A stretch of 38,183 nt of DNA from Candidatus Woesearchaeota archaeon (GTDB taxonomy: Archaea > Nanobdellota > Nanobdellia > Woesearchaeales > DSVV01), in the NCBI GenBank assembly GCA_018303325.1, contig JAGVYH010000001.1, positions 88,849 to 127,031 on the forward strand, read 5' to 3'. Below are positions 4,273-36,162 of the stretch, piece by piece; positions within the stretch are counted from its first letter, which is position 1, and every line of letters begins with the position of its first letter. A program made the position numbers and the translations under genes. The notes beneath the pieces are model-generated. The model saw nothing but the letters and a program-made list of their open reading frames with translations. It had not been told where the DNA came from and did no database searches.

Positions 4273-4407
4273 CCAAGCTCTTCTGCTTCTTTCATTAGTA
4301 ATCAAACAAACTCCTGCTTTCTTTCAAGTTAATAACTTTCATCAATAATCAAACAAACTCGTCTGCTTCTTCTCACTAATAGTCAAATAGGCTTGTCTGC
4401 TTCTTCC
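4273..4407 (-). repeat. Degenerate tandem copies of the polB 3' end (PIP-box coding)
   Basis: Downstream of the polB stop the last ~33 bp of the gene are repeated. Copy 1 (4376-4407) is the real terminus, K-K-Q-T-S-L-F-D-Y-stop. Copy 2 (4342-4374), in another frame, reads E-K-K-Q-T-S-L-F-D-Y-stop. Copy 3 (4295-4325) carries a 2-nt deletion but still reads R-S-L-F-D-Y-stop. A weaker fourth copy may lie at 4273-4293. Copies 1 and 2 are 34 bp apart. The rest of 4153-4300 shows nothing recognisable. Confidence 0.8.
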
Positions 4408-7400
4408 CGCTGATTAAATCATCAAAGTTTTGGTTAAAAAATACAAGAATGCTGTCAGCAATCGGTTTTAACTGTTTTTCAGTATAATGCTCGTAATCTA
4501 TTTTTGATTTCAGCTTTTGTATTGGTTCTGGACCTTTTTCAGTTAATACATACTCTATTATTGTGCTGTCAATCTTATCCAATAATCTTGCTGCTTTCAC
4601 ATGAGGCGGCGTTGTTTTTGTATATTCATCCACGCCTTTTCTCAGTTCTTTTTTATAGACGAGAAGTTCGTCATATTTTCCTTTTTTCAGGTCTTTGACA
4701 AAATTAATGACATATTCGCTGACCTCTTTATTATTAAATATTCTATTCAACAATTCAACCTGGAAAACTTTTGCAAGTTCTGTCCAGTCCCTTCTTACAA
4801 ATTCCATGCCGACAAAATCAAGTTTTTCTGTTATTTTGCCATGCTCATCTTTCTTGATAATGAGTCCAGCGTATCTTTTTTTCGCGCCTACATCAACGCC
4901 TCTTAATTTGGGCATAATAAACTTTCTGTACACCTTTTCATACTGCAGTTCTAGGAAACTTGGCATTTTATACCATTCCTTGACAGTCTTAGCCCAAAAT
5001 TCAGTTATCTCGTCTTGAATTTTCTTTCCTGTCTTATCTGCATCTTCGAGTGATTTTGTTTTGGTTAACACAAAAATACTATCAGTATCTCCATAAATTA
5101 CTGTATAGCCCATCTCTTCAACTTTTTTCGCTGTTTCCTGCACAATATACCTGCCGTAACTGGTTATTGCATTTGCTATATCAAGATTAAAAAATCTGCA
5201 GAAAGGATTGGCGAGTGCTCCATAGAAAGATTGCCCACATACATTAAATCTGTAATTTCTTCCTGCAACAATTGTATGATATGGTTCTACTTCAACACAA
5301 TAAACATTACGATTATATTTCTCTCTACCAAAAATTCTATATTTACTTAAATATGGTGCCTTTCCTCTATTAGTTGTTATTAATGTTCTATAAATCTTAG
5401 ATTTACCTTTTTCTTCGAAAATATATCCTTTTTTTCCAATATGAATTAATAATCTAATAAAATCCTCGCAAAGGAGCTTGTTTACACTAGAATATCTACG
5501 CCCATCTGCATCACCATCCCCTTTCATTAAAGTATTATGTAAATGTATTAATAGAGAATGATCCAAAGAAAAAACCCACTGAGGAATTCTCTTTTTGTGG
5601 CTCCCATGACCAATTTCTTTTAATAATACTTTAGCAATTATTTCATTTGAGATAGTAACTGTTTTCTTTCCTATGGAATATTTAAACCCCATTCTATCAA
5701 AAAGATTGATAATCTCTTTTCTGTATTTAACATTCTGTTGAGTAATTGTTATTGCATGGGTTATACCTCTCCAAGAAACTTTCCCTTGATAAAATCGAGG
5801 AGTGGAGATATAAATGTGCCCTTCAGAGATGTACCAACCTAAAAATTGGAGCCAATCACTCATAAAATATACTTGTGAGATAGTACTATGTTTTCTATCT
5901 TTCTGTAATCCATGTTGTTTTATTTTATAACTTATACCCAATTCTTTGCATTTCTCTTTTAAATCAAAAATATCTGTTTTTTGCCCTTCTATTTTATTAA
6001 TGCTGGGCAGCCAACCTTTAATTAATGTTCTTGACATCTCCTCAGCTTCTTTCCACAAATAACCATATTCATTATGTATTAGAAATCTATGATTAGGCGT
6101 CACTAAATAATCAACATGTTTTGTGTGAAGTTTAATTAAGTATGAATTATAATTATATTTGTATAACTTGGTAACGGGCATTAATTCCAAGTTCTCTGTT
6201 TCTGGATTAAACGTGTAAACTAATTCTCCTTTTTTTACAGATTTAATTAATTTTATTCCATTTGATGTTAAAATTTGTGTATCGTCTGAGAAACAGTTCA
6301 TACTTATTTTGATGGCATTGCTTGTAATTTTATCTTTCTTTTTCTTTGCCTTGTCCCTCATATCCCATAAATATTGAATTATAGACGGCAGAATGCCTGT
6401 TTTTTTAAAAAATCGTGCTTTGTTAGGCGCAATAATCTCTCCTTTTTCGCCTTTTTTTGTAATTGTATCTGTCCCTGAATCAAAAGAATATGGATCAATA
6501 TTGAATGTCCTGATAATACTTGGATACAGGCTCTTGAAATCAAGAACAATAACATAATCATAAATTCCTGGTGATGATTCACGGACAAAGCCGCCTTTAA
6601 TCCTTTCTCCTCTTTCGCCGTATTTTGAAGTTGGGCATACTAATCCTTGTTTCTTTGTTTCTCTTAAATACATTGAATCTAAACTGGCAATGGATGCGCT
6701 TACTCTGTCAAGCTGCATTCCTGTCAATGTTGACCTGTGAATGTAAAGCCGAACTAATTCTTTTTTTTCAAGGATATCATAAACCAGCTTGGCATCCTCA
6801 AGATTGTAATCAACAACCTTTTGAGGCTCTGTCTTGTAAAGTTTCATGACTTCTGCGCCCCTATTGTCGCCTTTTATGAGTTTGCCCCTTCCAAGAATAC
6901 TTTGCGCTGCTGTTTCAAGCTTGTAATCTTCGAGGGCAATAAATGAGCTTCTCATCATAGCCATACCGTCTAAAACCTGTCTTCCAGCAATATCAGCTGT
7001 GCTCTCCTTAAAAAAATCATGTTGAATCTTTAATGATGATTCCCATTCTGCTCTTCCGAGAACAAAAGGTAGGTTATGTACTCTAAATCTTTCTCGAATA
7101 ACTGCAAAATCAAAATCAATCACGTTCCATCCTGTAATAATGTCAGGATCAAGCTCTTGTATCTTTTCTTTAAAATATTCAAGCATTGCTTTTTCGTTGT
7201 CAAAACACATTGCATTTTTTAGCTTGCCTTTTTTCGTTTCATCATATGTAATCAATACTTTTTTGTAGTTTTCTGTGTATAACGAAATAGAAATAATTTC
7301 TGGAGAAGTTTCATTATCCTCATGTTTATTGCTCTCATTTTTGTTATTTTCAGTTTTGTTAGTCCCTGTTTTATTTGTACAATTCTTATTAATAGCATTC

Positions 7401-7912
7401 TCACTAGTTTCAATATCAATAGAAAGCACATTTAAGTTAGGTTCATATTTGATAGTTTGTGAAACAGGTTCAAAATAAGGATTTTCATAAATCCTATTGA
7501 CAAAATTTCCTTTTTTATATTCTCCTTTTATGGTTGTAACGCCTTTTATCTCGTTGTCAATCATGAACCTGTAAACAAACCTGACATCTGCTTCATAGCA
7601 TTCAATTTTCTCTGCGTCTAATTGCTCCCTTAGCTTTGGAACATCTGAAGGCAGGTTCAGAATAATCTTTACAACTTCTTCATCGTCGAAGTTTTTGATC
7701 TTCTCCCTGCCTGTTTTGTCTGTTTCAAAGGGAATATTAGATTTATCTGCAGTTTTTTTTGCCTTATCAAGTTCGCTCTTCTTAATCCAAAAATACGGCT
7801 GGAAATGATTTATCGTGAGAAAACTTTCTCCATTTTCAAGCCTGCCAAATAAATAAACATATGCTGTATTATTAATTATTCTGTATGTTGGGTATACGAT
7901 GAAGGCTTTCAT
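4376..7912 (-). CDS. polB: Family-B DNA polymerase with in-frame intein
   Basis: 1178-aa precursor; removing the 355-aa intein leaves 823 aa, normal for archaeal PolB. Exonuclease motifs: ExoI D166-I-E, ExoII N-V-I-D-F-D, ExoIII Y-N-L-E-D-A. Polymerase motifs: A D458-F-K-S-L-Y-P-S-I-I, B N-S-F-Y-G (split by the intein), C Y-G-D942-T-D-S. The C-terminus Q-T-S-L-F-D-Y (1172-1178) is a PCNA-interacting PIP box. Just after ExoI, about residues 172-203 form an Asn/Lys/Thr-rich low-complexity insert unusual for the family. Probable replicative or repair polymerase. The upstream promoter region is occupied by a palindrome array whose first hairpin starts 21 bp from the ATG. Confidence 0.97.
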   Translation of the reverse strand: MKAFIVYPTYRIINNTAYVYLFGRLENGESFLTINHFQPYFWIKKSELDKAKKTADKSNIPFETDKTGREKIKNFDDEEVVKIILNLPSDVPKLREQLDAEKIECYEADVRFVYRFMIDNEIKGVTTIKGEYKKGNFVNRIYENPYFEPVSQTIKYEPNLNVLSIDIETSENAINKNCTNKTGTNKTENNKNESNKHEDNETSPEIISISLYTENYKKVLITYDETKKGKLKNAMCFDNEKAMLEYFKEKIQELDPDIITGWNVIDFDFAVIRERFRVHNLPFVLGRAEWESSLKIQHDFFKESTADIAGRQVLDGMAMMRSSFIALEDYKLETAAQSILGRGKLIKGDNRGAEVMKLYKTEPQKVVDYNLEDAKLVYDILEKKELVRLYIHRSTLTGMQLDRVSASIASLDSMYLRETKKQGLVCPTSKYGERGERIKGGFVRESSPGIYDYVIVLDFKSLYPSIIRTFNIDPYSFDSGTDTITKKGEKGEIIAPNKARFFKKTGILPSIIQYLWDMRDKAKKKKDKITSNAIKISMNCFSDDTQILTSNGIKLIKSVKKGELVYTFNPETENLELMPVTKLYKYNYNSYLIKLHTKHVDYLVTPNHRFLIHNEYGYLWKEAEEMSRTLIKGWLPSINKIEGQKTDIFDLKEKCKELGISYKIKQHGLQKDRKHSTISQVYFMSDWLQFLGWYISEGHIYISTPRFYQGKVSWRGITHAITITQQNVKYRKEIINLFDRMGFKYSIGKKTVTISNEIIAKVLLKEIGHGSHKKRIPQWVFSLDHSLLIHLHNTLMKGDGDADGRRYSSVNKLLCEDFIRLLIHIGKKGYIFEEKGKSKIYRTLITTNRGKAPYLSKYRIFGREKYNRNVYCVEVEPYHTIVAGRNYRFNVCGQSFYGALANPFCRFFNLDIANAITSYGRYIVQETAKKVEEMGYTVIYGDTDSIFVLTKTKSLEDADKTGKKIQDEITEFWAKTVKEWYKMPSFLELQYEKVYRKFIMPKLRGVDVGAKKRYAGLIIKKDEHGKITEKLDFVGMEFVRRDWTELAKVFQVELLNRIFNNKEVSEYVINFVKDLKKGKYDELLVYKKELRKGVDEYTKTTPPHVKAARLLDKIDSTIIEYVLTEKGPEPIQKLKSKIDYEHYTEKQLKPIADSILVFFNQNFDDLISGKKQTSLFDY
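5231..6295 (-). other. PolB intein with LAGLIDADG homing endonuclease
   Basis: Residues 540-894 of the PolB precursor. It starts at Cys540 (C-F-S-D-D-T-Q-I-L) directly after N539 of polymerase motif B; the C-extein starts with Ser895 (S-F-Y-G-A-L). Hint block B is T-P-N-H-R-F and block F V-E-P-Y-H-T-I-V-A-G. Two DOD endonuclease motifs are visible, F-L-G-W-Y-I-S-E-G-H and L-M-K-G-D-G-D-A-D-G, both with their acidic residue, so the endonuclease may be active. The C-terminal junction is atypical: Gly-Gln where most inteins have His-Asn. Confidence 0.95.
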
Positions 7913-7932
7913 GGTTTATTCATAATATAATG

Positions 7933-8212
7933 GTGGACTTTAATATTCTTATCCTTTTAGTTAAAGTCCACGAATAACGAACGAACTAAATCACATTATC
8001 TTTATTAGTTTAGTTCGTTCAATGTGTAGTAACTAACCTTATATTTGTGTATTATTCGTGTTAGTTACTACATTTGTCGGACATAACAAATTGATATAAG
8101 TAATTATGTCCGACATTATAACAAACCCATAAAACATTATTATTAAAATTTAGTGTGTTTGTTACATATAGTCACGGAACTACGTATATGATTATTAATG
8201 TCCGTGACTATA
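7933..8212. repeat. Array of six adjacent palindromes
   Basis: The ~390-bp gap between polB and the HEPN gene holds six hairpins in a row, 2-7 nt apart: 7933-7971 (GTGGACTTTAA arms), 7979-8020 (GAACGAACTAAA), 8025-8072 (TGTAGTAACTAAC), 8075-8115 (TGTCGGACATAA), 8119-8164 (TAACAAAC, extended by two further pairs) and 8167-8212 (TATAGTCACGGA). Arms are 8-13 bp, loops 17-30 nt and AT-rich. Arms differ from one hairpin to the next, so this is not a simple tandem repeat. Hairpins 1, 4, 5 and 6 have relatives elsewhere in the window. Positions 8213-8306 hold only A/T-rich sequence. Confidence 0.9.
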
Positions 8213-8306
8213 ATTTACTGTTTGTATATCTTGTTGATTTAATAATCTTTTCATATTTAACATGAATACTACACAAAAAGATATATTTTATTTATGATTA
8301 TAGATT

Positions 8307-8846
8307 TTATTTTAGGTTTAATAATAATTTTCTCATTTCTAACATGAACATACTTGCTCTTTTAAGTGAAGTCTTTGCTTTTTGCTCTTGAATGTTTTCA
8401 GTCATATCATACTGGAAACTAGATCTTTTGTTCATCTCCTGCTCATAAAAGGTTATAAGCTCTTCTGATTTAATTGAGGCTATTTCCAATGCGTCATTTT
8501 TTGCATTTTCATATTCTTCAATCATATCTTTCTTTATCTTGTCCATCACAAGTACTATAAGTGCATCATAAGTGACTTTATGCACTATTTGTGTTCCTGT
8601 TTTATAACCAAGCTCCAACAAAACTGCATTTGCCATATAAAACATAGAATAATATGACATCACAACTATCCACAGATATGGTTTTAATTGACTATTTATA
8701 TTTTGTTCTGCAAGCCTTAATGATAAATCTGCATTTTTAAGATACATTGATTTTGCAGTCTCATTTTTTTCTTTTTTAATAAGCCCTTGCTCCAAGTATT
8801 GTGAAAAGCTTTGCTGCGCTTCTTTTTTTCGTTTTGCATCTATCAT
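8307..8846 (-). CDS. HEPN-domain protein, toxin-like partner of the MNT gene
   Basis: 179 aa, mostly helical. The central block W-I-V-V-M-S-Y-Y-S-M-F-Y-M-A-N-A-V-L-L-E-L-G is typical of HEPN proteins of the UPF0332 kind (Y-Y-a-M-F-h-A-a-r-a-L-L). Its ATG follows directly on the stop codon of the nucleotidyltransferase gene, the standard HEPN/MNT pairing of type VII toxin-antitoxin modules. The RNase motif R-x4-6-H is not evident; the nearest match is R141-S-S-F-Q-Y-D, so RNase activity is uncertain. Possible role: RNA-targeting toxin neutralised by AMPylation from its partner. Confidence 0.75.
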   Translation of the reverse strand: MIDAKRKKEAQQSFSQYLEQGLIKKEKNETAKSMYLKNADLSLRLAEQNINSQLKPYLWIVVMSYYSMFYMANAVLLELGYKTGTQIVHKVTYDALIVLVMDKIKKDMIEEYENAKNDALEIASIKSEELITFYEQEMNKRSSFQYDMTENIQEQKAKTSLKRASMFMLEMRKLLLNLK

Positions 8847-9428
8847 TTATATCATCTCATAATATGTTTCTATACCATATAAAATAACATTATTTTTTAA
8901 AGCTTCATGTCCAACATTGGATTTCTTTGTATTTAACATCTCAATAAATTGTTTATCAGAAAATACCAAACAGTGTAGAGGCAGCGGTAAAATGTTTGCT
9001 ATTGCAATCACCTCTTTCTCAAACTGTTCTTCAATTCCATCAGAGCATATAAACATTAAGTCAATATCTGAGGTTTTGTTCTGGGTTTTTTTTGCATAAG
9101 AACCGAAAAGAAGCAATACATAGCATTTTAGTTTTAATGAATTTTTAAAATAATCAAGCAACACTTTAATATTCTTGTTTTTTAATAGCTCCTCTCTGCG
9201 TTCATACTCTGCTTCAAATATAAGTGGATGTACTTTATTGATGAGTTTCAAGCGGTTTGAGTTGCCAAACTGCTCAATAGCAATTACTTTTTTTTTTTTG
9301 AGCCGCTTAATTATCGAATAAGCGGTTTTGTAATCCATTTTCAGTGCTTTGGAGATATTAAGAATATTCAATTCTTTAGTTTTATTATTCAAAAGATGTT
9401 TGATAATTGTTGTGTCTTTGTTAATCAT
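8847..9428 (-). CDS. Winged-helix + minimal nucleotidyltransferase (antitoxin-like)
   Basis: 193 aa. Residues 1-65 form a winged helix (I-L-N-I-S-K-A-L-K-M-D-Y-K-T-A-Y-S-I-I-K). Residues ~100-125 carry the polymerase-beta-like core G109-S-Y-A-K-K-T-Q-N-K-T-S-D121-I-D123-L. MNT antitoxins of this kind AMPylate the HEPN toxin. The extra DNA-binding domain suggests autoregulation, and a 16-bp palindrome sits between the TATA box and the Shine-Dalgarno GGTGA. Start ATG 9428 is set by that GGTGA, seven nt upstream. Confidence 0.85.
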   Translation of the reverse strand: MINKDTTIIKHLLNNKTKELNILNISKALKMDYKTAYSIIKRLKKKKVIAIEQFGNSNRLKLINKVHPLIFEAEYERREELLKNKNIKVLLDYFKNSLKLKCYVLLLFGSYAKKTQNKTSDIDLMFICSDGIEEQFEKEVIAIANILPLPLHCLVFSDKQFIEMLNTKKSNVGHEALKNNVILYGIETYYEMI

Positions 9429-13763: not shown

Positions 13764-13777
13764 GCAAGAAAAGGTTA

Positions 13778-13865
13778 TATAGTCACGGACATTAATTTTC
13801 GTATGTTTAATACCGTGACTATATTCGCGGACTTTAACAAAATTAATACGAATATTAAAGTCCGC
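13778..13865. repeat. Two adjacent palindromes between convergent genes
   Basis: Hairpin 1: TATAGTCACGG (13778-13788) / CCGTGACTATA (13813-13823). Hairpin 2: GCGGACTTTAA (13827-13837) / TTAAAGTCCGC (13855-13865), 3 nt further on. The first is an inverted-orientation relative of 8167-8212, the second of 7933-7971 and 24582-24620. Lying between convergent genes, they could stop transcription from both sides. Confidence 0.88.
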
Positions 13866-13905
13866 CACTATAAACAAAAAATAAACCAAAAAAATCAGCA
13901 TAAAA

Positions 13906-18185: not shown

Positions 18186-18556
18186 TATAGTAAGTGACGT
18201 AAATTTTTATACATATCGTGTCACTTACTATATCTCGGGAATCGAAGATTCCTGAGAGGTTAGAAAGCTTTGCTTTCCAACCTTTGTCGGACATAACACT
18301 TTGTATATTTCAGATTAAATGTAAAATTAGTTATTAAGTCACATTTAATCTGAAACAACAGAATTCCACCAATCATGAGGTTATAATCGAGTGGGATTCT
18401 GTGTGCTCAAGAACCACCGATTGGTGTAATTCTGAGCATCAAGAACCACATATTTGTTGTATCATTGTACCATCATGCTACTTAATTGTAGTTAGTGGTT
18501 CTTGACAGATTAAAAATTTAATTTATTAAATTTTCAATAAATATTTATGTCCGACA
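18186..18556. repeat. Palindrome cluster with hairpins nested inside a hairpin
   Basis: This fills the 586-bp gap 18092-18677. In order: 18186-18232 (TATAGTAAGTGAC arms), 18234-18256 (CTCGGGAATC / GATTCCTGAG), 18258-18282 (GGTTAGAAAG / CTTTCCAACC), then an outer pair TGTCGGACATAA 18285-18296 / 18545-18556 enclosing 248 nt. Inside that: 18311-18322 / 18341-18352 (CAGATTAAATGT), 18359-18374 / 18419-18434 (15 of 16 paired) and TCAAGAACCAC at 18439-18449 paired with 18495-18505, with a second copy of that arm at 18407-18417 inside the previous loop. No gene is visible. Confidence 0.88.
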
Positions 18557-24581: not shown

Positions 24582-24714
24582 GTGGACTTTAATATTCGTA
24601 TCTTTTTTGTTAAAGTCCACGTATATAGCAAAGGCATCATTAATTACGAAAATTTAGTGCCTTTGCTATAATTGCTGGATGCATAAGCTAAATCGAGTTA
24701 AGATTTAGATGCAT
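24582..24714. repeat. Three adjacent palindromes
   Basis: 24582-24620 (GTGGACTTTAA arms, 17-nt loop almost identical to that at 7933-7971), 24624-24670 (TATAGCAAAGGCA / TGCCTTTGCTATA) and 24679-24714 (ATGCAT and CTAAATC stems with an AAG bulge). Spacers are 3 and 8 nt. They lie downstream of the TauE-type gene and upstream of the thioredoxin-like gene. Confidence 0.88.
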
Positions 24715-36123: not shown

Positions 36124-36162
36124 TGTCGGACATAATAAATGTATAAATATTTATGTCCGACA
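36124..36162. repeat. TGTCGGACATAA palindrome
   Basis: TGTCGGACATAA (36124-36135) / TTATGTCCGACA (36151-36162), 15-nt loop. Third copy of the family seen at 8075-8115 and 18285-18556. Between the glutaredoxin promoter and the 3' end of the peroxiredoxin gene. Confidence 0.88.

Follow-up and report, generated by a model that had tools for sequence, protein, structure and literature searches.

Six hairpins occupy the 280 bp that lie directly upstream of the DNA polymerase gene polB in a genome assigned to Candidatus Woesearchaeota, and the question raised by this locus is what kind of array they form and how it came to be there. The first-pass annotation of the window (the whole stretch of 38,183 nucleotides that was analysed) described six unrelated-looking palindromes, and proposed either that small palindromic elements had been inserted repeatedly next to each other or that the array had been built by copying with stem replacement. 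In our assessment the array very probably consists of three non-autonomous elements that belong to a single family and entered one another in succession, or arrived in part as a nested composite, upstream of polB after the split from a same-genus relative. The source genome (G000) is archaeal and comprises 1.97 Mb in 78 contigs, of which 1.23 Mb (63%) was collected for script scans; the script scan of the same-genus relative, G001, covered approximately one quarter of that genome, and all genomes compared are metagenome assemblies.

Anatomy of the polB array

The minus-strand gene polB has its start at 7912, and the array therefore lies immediately upstream of it, with its insertion point about 15 nt from the start codon; polB is, as annotated, the next gene downstream. 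All six hairpins at 7933-8212, and the gaps of 2-7 nt between them, were confirmed. Their folding is far above chance on both strands, with an RNA fold of -91.4 kcal/mol (z = -10.4) for the plus strand and a DNA fold with z = -9.7 for the minus strand, neither of which is equalled by any shuffle. The hairpins are of a short (S) and a long (L) type and form three nested pairs, which can be written in bracket form as S1(S2(L3 S4)L5)L6. The features are as follows.

4376-7912, minus strand: polB, family B DNA polymerase with an intein-like insert (Pfam DNA_pol_B, DNA_pol_B_exo1)
7926-8212, no strand assigned: whole insertion, consisting of TA (7926-7927), 283 bp (7928-8210) and TA (8211-8212); three nested double-hairpin elements
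7928-8210, plus strand: outer element E1, S1 ... L6, with its centre interrupted by E2
7977-8166, plus strand: middle element E2, S2 ... L5, entering at TA where S1 meets L6, and interrupted by E3
8025-8118, minus strand: inner element E3, L3 + S4, in inverted orientation at the centre of E2
7933-7971, plus strand: S1 hairpin, GTGGACTTTAA stem of 11 bp, loop of 17 nt
7979-8020, plus strand: S2 hairpin, GAACGAACTAAA stem of 12 bp, loop of 18 nt
8025-8072, minus strand: L3 hairpin, TGTAGTAACTAAC stem of 13 bp, loop of 22 nt
8075-8115, minus strand: S4 hairpin, TGTCGGACATAA stem of 12 bp, loop of 17 nt
8119-8164, plus strand: L5 hairpin, TAACAAACCCA stem of 11 bp with one mismatch, loop of 24 nt
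8167-8212, plus strand: L6 hairpin, TATAGTCACGGA stem of 12 bp, loop of 22 nt

Each of the three elements can be recognized elsewhere. Uninterrupted S1-L6 pairs, which support E1, are found at C12:27331, C47:13617, C50:8875, C50:9277, and C72:13545. The arrangement S1(S2 L5)L6 without E3, supporting E2, is present at C55:81012, C40:19396, and C78:6467, and in G001 at L095 and L096, while S(L3 S4)L as in E3 recurs at C52:30996, C70:10855, and G001 L093:1089. Even the mismatch in the L5 stem is repeated identically in the copies at C55:81012 and C67:10483.

A CRISPR array was considered and rejected, no direct repeat family being detected in 7600-8500, which agrees with the first-pass annotation; it had also set the array apart from an ordinary terminator, and nested double-hairpin insertions at TATA-like borders are indeed something else. 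In the polB neighbourhood, the intein-like insert matches Intein_splicing below the cut-off, and the G001 orthologue seems to be without it (open frame of 845 versus 1178 aa). A HEPN and nucleotidyltransferase gene pair resembling a toxin-antitoxin module adjoins polB at 8307-9428 of the window, and in G001 the HEPN gene next to polB has been almost completely deleted.

Two hairpin classes throughout the genome

The arms of the hairpins, thought at first to be unrelated, belong to two homologous series of fixed geometry that recur genome-wide. Short hairpins have stems of 11-12 bp and loops of 16-18 nt, their stems forming a graded series that includes GTGGACTTTAA, GCGGACTTTAA, GAACGAACTAAA, GGCGAATTAAA, and TGTCGGACATAA; long hairpins have stems of 11-14 bp and loops of 21-24 nt, with a series that includes TATAGTAAGTGAC, TATAGCAAAGGCA, TATAGTCACGGA, and TGTAGTAACTAAC. 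When perfect stems of at least 10 bp in 1.23 Mb of the source genome were surveyed against a second-order Markov shuffle, 129 hairpins had loops of 16-18 nt (about 11 expected) and 80 had loops of 21-22 nt (about 5 expected). Arrays of at least two adjacent hairpins number 87 in the same 1.23 Mb versus 2 in the shuffle, where the maximum is two units. A 311-bp array query produced 62 matches in the source genome, many of them spanning a single cognate pair, the matching pieces being S1 alone, S1+S2, L3+S4, L5+L6, or S1 followed directly by L6. Of the outcomes that would have spoken against the first-pass annotation, neither a lack of copies elsewhere nor an equal density everywhere by chance was observed; copies do exist elsewhere, and shuffled sequence does not reach their density. 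The elements are intergenic in 66 of 68 cases, though intergenic sequence makes up 19.6% of the total, and neither convergent nor divergent spaces are strongly favoured; this bias looks like the picture expected of tolerated insertions in a compact genome.

Further copies lie within the window itself, namely an L6-S1 pair (13777-13872), an L_GTAAGTGAC hairpin (18186-18232), an S1-L_GCAAAGGCA pair (24582-24670), and an S4 hairpin (36124-36162). Second and third double-hairpin families were also observed, TTTCAGATTAAAT with ACAGAATTCCAC and ATTGTAAATTTAA with TTGCAGATTAAAT, at window positions 18308-18402 and at C25:20363, C38:876, and C59:15201; the ATTGTAAATTTAA/TTGCAGATTAAAT family likewise inserts at TA, and one of its copies sits inside an S1 hairpin (C36:7334). 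A mostly solitary AAAAGTCCTT hairpin with TATAC borders and an 18-nt loop occurs at C6:56380, C12:37781, C25:29872, and about 20 other places.

The hairpin pair as the mobile unit

In adjacent hairpins an S is joined to an L, bordered by TATA on both outer sides and separated by TATA, and it is this pair that constitutes the mobile unit. One element measures approximately 90 bp and reads flank-TATA, S hairpin, TATA, L hairpin with terminal TATA, flank. Array sizes reflect the pairing, since arrays of two (67), four (13), and six (1) hairpins are accompanied by odd exceptions of three (5) and five (1) only. With hairpin orientation taken from the loops, the pair-in-pair parse was complete in 14 four-hairpin arrays (13 without one duplicate contig), and no four-hairpin array parsed as tandem, side-by-side pairs. 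The automatic parser missed triple nests because of the L5 mismatch and some loop orientations, and triple nests were therefore parsed by eye.

Arrays are bracket-like nests in which newcomers enter the centre of older elements. Among the arrays read by eye there are about 10 distinct combinations of outer and inner elements, and insertion is always at the pair centre. Examples include L_GCAAAGGCA( L_GTAAGTGAC S_TGTCGG )S_GTGGAC at C60:17029, S_TGTCGG( L S_CAACAACAAA )L_GTAAG at C56:818, S1(S1'(S2 L5)L6)L_GCAAAGGCA at C67:10483, and, in G001, S4(L6(L5 S2)S1)L. The occurrence of S1(S2 L5)L6 at several sites implies that the composite moves whole or that an identical nest arose repeatedly, and we think that the composite moving whole is the better explanation. 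What survives of the adjacent-insertion proposal is that small palindromic elements with TATA-like borders were inserted repeatedly; the unit is instead the hairpin pair, and the insertions are nested into pair centres rather than placed alongside.

Insertion at TA

In G001 the site upstream of the orthologous polB gene is empty and contains TA once (AAATTA-TCATGAA). On the polB strand, G001 reads AAATTA-TCATGAACTCTTGAACTAGCC-ATG and the source genome AAATTA-(array)-TATTATGAATAAACC-ATG; because a single TA in G001 corresponds to TA-array-TA in the source genome, the array arrived by insertion, although precise loss from G001 is a less likely alternative at this site. This comparison of orthologous polB upstream regions had been proposed with the possibility in mind that related strains carry the same six hairpins with no gain or loss, and the same-genus relative is without the array. 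The reverse situation was found for the L095 nest of G001, which has an empty counterpart with the same TA signature at C25:30872 of the source genome (GCATT-TA-AAG), and a second double-hairpin family adds two more empty/filled TA cases (C59:15201 and C36:7334). Insertion is thus at TA, with one TA when the site is empty and TA at both ends when it is filled; the flanking TA could be a true target duplication or could reflect a right end that carries TA. A counter-case is provided by an old insertion whose host is a repeat (C12:6681 with its relatives, and C32:11313); the empty copies of this repeat are without TA.

Another dispersed repeat, CATGAGACGGTGGACTGCGTCC / GGGTGGCTTCGCCCAGGAAC, is frequent in both genomes and is occasionally host to hairpin elements; its sites in the source genome include C12:6681, C30:7173, C55:70779, and C59:9147.

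Compensated stems and complementary loops

For comparison of the stems, copies were sought with mismatches permitted independently on each arm. Changed stem positions were paired on both sides in 122 instances, wobble in 22, broken on one side in 79 (some of which are chance matches or end positions), and broken on both sides in 4. Stems therefore vary by compensated substitutions while their geometry stays constant, and copying with "stem replacement" holds over evolutionary time, as drift by such substitutions, and not otherwise.

The loops of the two hairpins in a pair are related as well. Across 53 distinct pairs, S/L loop complementarity was 7.63 for cognate and 6.09 for swapped partners (P = 0.0002, a permutation value that, like the others given here, is too optimistic because copies are related by descent). 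The S1-L6 class alone gave the same value (P = 0.0002), S4-type pairs alone showed weak loop covariation (P = 0.085), and a same-strand loop control was not significant (P = 0.14). In nests, the bracket assignment was the most complementary one in 13 of 17 arrays (P = 0.00015). Loop covariation is illustrated by C50:9277, in which S CTGT accompanies L ACAG in place of the usual TTCGTAT/ATACGAA, and by G001 L097, where S TATAT accompanies L ATATA and others have TATAC/GTATA. In the polB array, the loops of S1-L6 and S2-L5 pair weakly. That cognate loops are more complementary than swapped partners suggests that the S and L hairpins of one pair probably kiss through their loops.

Distribution among related genomes

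Many copies of the array query are present in G001, and none was matched in nine other genomes of the same family at the search sensitivity used; a weak match of 33 bases was obtained in one more distant genome. A search of 84,980 species with the exact S4 hairpin pattern, which may leave out records of the source genome itself, returned one other genome, Candidatus Woesearchaeota archaeon NC_groundwater_1388. Geometric scanning of about 385 kb, drawn from seven related genomes that lie outside the genus, six belonging to its family and one to its order, detected one adjacent pair of S and L size, without TATA borders or family stems. Two hairpin patterns had no match in IMG/VR, nor was any match found in the phage and plasmid records searched. 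A covariance model of the pair was abandoned because MAFFT shifted the S1-type stems by one base relative to the S4-type stems.

Possible mode of movement and alternative explanations

Candidates for the mover were sought among Pfam matches in both genomes. Y1 transposase and tyrosine recombinase genes are present in both and are the only candidates matched in G001 (76% complete), DDE_Tnp_1 and reverse transcriptase being matched in the source genome only. Framing by S and L was not seen for Y1, DDE_Tnp_1, reverse transcriptase, or tyrosine recombinase genes (the last two at scan level only), an inverted-repeat scan found no S/L ends at the DDE_Tnp_1 locus, and composites of the form S...gene...L were not evident in the scanned 63% of the source genome. 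Self-comparison revealed few long IS-like repeats. A Y1 transposase with S/L ends was rejected as a candidate, as the Y1 loci carry other, short hairpins. On one contig of G000 (C5:923-8573), a Y1 transposase and a reverse transcriptase accompany a protein whose end resembles a DGR variable protein, possibly as a diversity-generating retroelement.

In the mechanism that we propose, S would form the left end and L the right end of a minimal transposon that is moved by a putative enzyme supplied in trans. The simplest idea is that the ends would be recognized single-stranded, by shape and TATA borders and not by stem sequence, because end sequences vary while shape stays. The centre of a pair would serve as dispensable "cargo space," so that a pair carrying another pair would still be able to move, as S1(S2 L5)L6 at many sites may exemplify, and loop-loop pairing could let an end identify its own partner inside a nest. 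The fullest form of this reading, in which ends are recognized purely by shape, leaving pairing stems free to change, loops act as a lock-and-key with their own partner against end mix-up in nests, and landing is preferred at the centre of relatives, such that Russian dolls would be built in safe places, is offered tentatively, as rather less likely than not.

Two alternatives concern the mechanism and leave the pair-and-nest anatomy untouched. One is that a double-strand DDE transposase (of the IS630/Tc1-mariner or IS5-IS427 type) moves the elements, which would then be ordinary MITEs that target TA, with the hairpins incidental. The single TA of empty sites versus TA at both ends of filled ones, the non-autonomous and intergenic nature of the elements, and the DDE_Tnp_1 gene of the source genome would all fit; the two outer ends, however, match as terminal inverted repeats only over TATAG, end stem sequences differ between subfamilies with geometry kept, DDE_3 (IS630) has no match in either genome, and G001 lacks a DDE_Tnp_1 match, which together make this explanation rather unlikely. 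The other derives the elements from IS200/IS605 in the manner of PATEs, S and L being left- and right-end hairpins read by Y1 TnpA on single-stranded DNA and TATA combining the target with the right-end cleavage motif. It accords with the two different subterminal hairpins, the lack of terminal inverted repeats, and the Y1 gene in both genomes, but loops of 16-24 nt are unlike those of IS608 hairpins, and the Y1 genes seen adjoin ordinary short hairpins such as CCAGCACTTTAGTGCTGG and not S/L. Haloquadratum PATEs can be terminal-only and as small as 52 bp, which is favourable, yet they are without target duplication (PMC3119063), and on balance we doubt this derivation.

Explanations that dispute the anatomy or the origin of the array fare worse. 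Six single-hairpin elements inserted independently next to one another, as first envisaged, would account for TATA borders on each hairpin and for the isolated single hairpins listed by the scan; fixed cognate S and L pairs, the dominance of even-numbered arrays, and the existence of intermediate nests make this very improbable. A role in polB regulation, for which the array would have been conserved as a functional cis-RNA or as a protein-binding array, might be suggested by the very stable fold on both strands and the location between the HEPN gene and polB. Such an array is nonetheless absent at polB of G001, the polB-holding stretches of G008, G005, G002, and G007 have no S+L arrays except one unrelated chance pair (G002), the same elements stand beside many other genes, and the array has no Rfam family match at gathering score; conservation for this role is scarcely credible, and a lineage-specific effect of the array on polB expression is possible.

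Comparison with known hairpin elements

Small hairpin elements such as REP, MITE, DHE, and GC clusters are widespread, but it is frequently difficult to establish what their unit is and by what mechanism they work. The nested S/L elements described here offer natural intermediates: pairs that stand alone, pairs inside pairs, and triple nests, together with an orthologous site that is empty and many stem variants in which pairing is kept. From these the unit and the insertion point emerge clearly, and they provide a testable idea, namely that shape is recognized and ends are matched loop to loop.

Tiny, mobile-looking two-hairpin units, mainly intergenic, dispersed, and non-coding, are described as double-hairpin elements (DHE) in mitochondrial DNAs, that of Allomyces among them, and as repetitive hairpin elements in sponges (PMC2800124), and the elements here similarly have two adjacent hairpins, as fixed S+L pairs that make up the 67 two-unit arrays. 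They differ from mitochondrial DHE in their archaeal chromosomal host, fixed S/L pairing, covarying loops, an apparent TA duplication deduced from empty sites, and entry at the centre of another element; the double hairpins of sponge mtDNA are explained by tandem insertion of single hairpins (PMC2800124). The elements would therefore be said to work like DHE without being filed among them, the likeness being one of organization and not of aligned sequences. Yeast mitochondrial GC clusters (GC42 and others) are comparable as palindromic 40-nt units with 2-bp duplications (AG) and merging or shuffling of units, but they appear in the relevant passages as GC-rich single clusters that merge, with no paired-unit rule or bracket nesting described there (PMC4478555).

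SMR-A and PATE of Haloquadratum are likewise archaeal, about 110 bp or less, without transposase, and prefer the palindromes of other mobile elements as insertion sites (PMC3119063). SMR-A is described there with terminal inverted repeats, no target duplication, and PATE/IS605 palindromes as targets (PMC3119063), unlike the elements here, whose nested entries hit the pair junctions of their own family, with TA apparently duplicated. S and L share with PATEs the possession of different subterminal palindromes without inverted terminal repeats, and show no kinship to resident IS605 hairpins, those at the Y1 loci being other and short.

TA-targeting MITEs (Correia, RUP, IS630-type) are also non-autonomous and intergenic with TA duplication, and the present elements are equally short (about 90 bp), non-coding, and dispersed, with TA apparently duplicated in empty/filled comparisons. 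Correia ends begin TATAGTGG. MITEs have one palindrome and matching terminal repeats of fixed sequence, in contrast to the two different palindromes and sequence-free stems found here, where S-arm and L-arm ends share only TATAG and no resident transposon with such ends was seen in the 63% of the genome scanned. In a REPIN, one and the same REP hairpin, with a short loop, is present as an inverted pair, whereas S and L differ from each other in size and sequence. The resemblance to REPINs/BIMEs with RAYT is in paired hairpins as the mobile unit (PMC3116915).

The passages of the open literature consulted report no double-hairpin elements in DPANN archaea and no self-nesting at a fixed centre, and describe, for archaea, no fixed two-hairpin unit that enters its own kind at the centre. 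The nearest known kinds are mitochondrial double-hairpin elements, yeast GC clusters, haloarchaeal SMRs/PATEs, and TA-MITEs, and the elements themselves belong with the small, non-autonomous hairpin elements.
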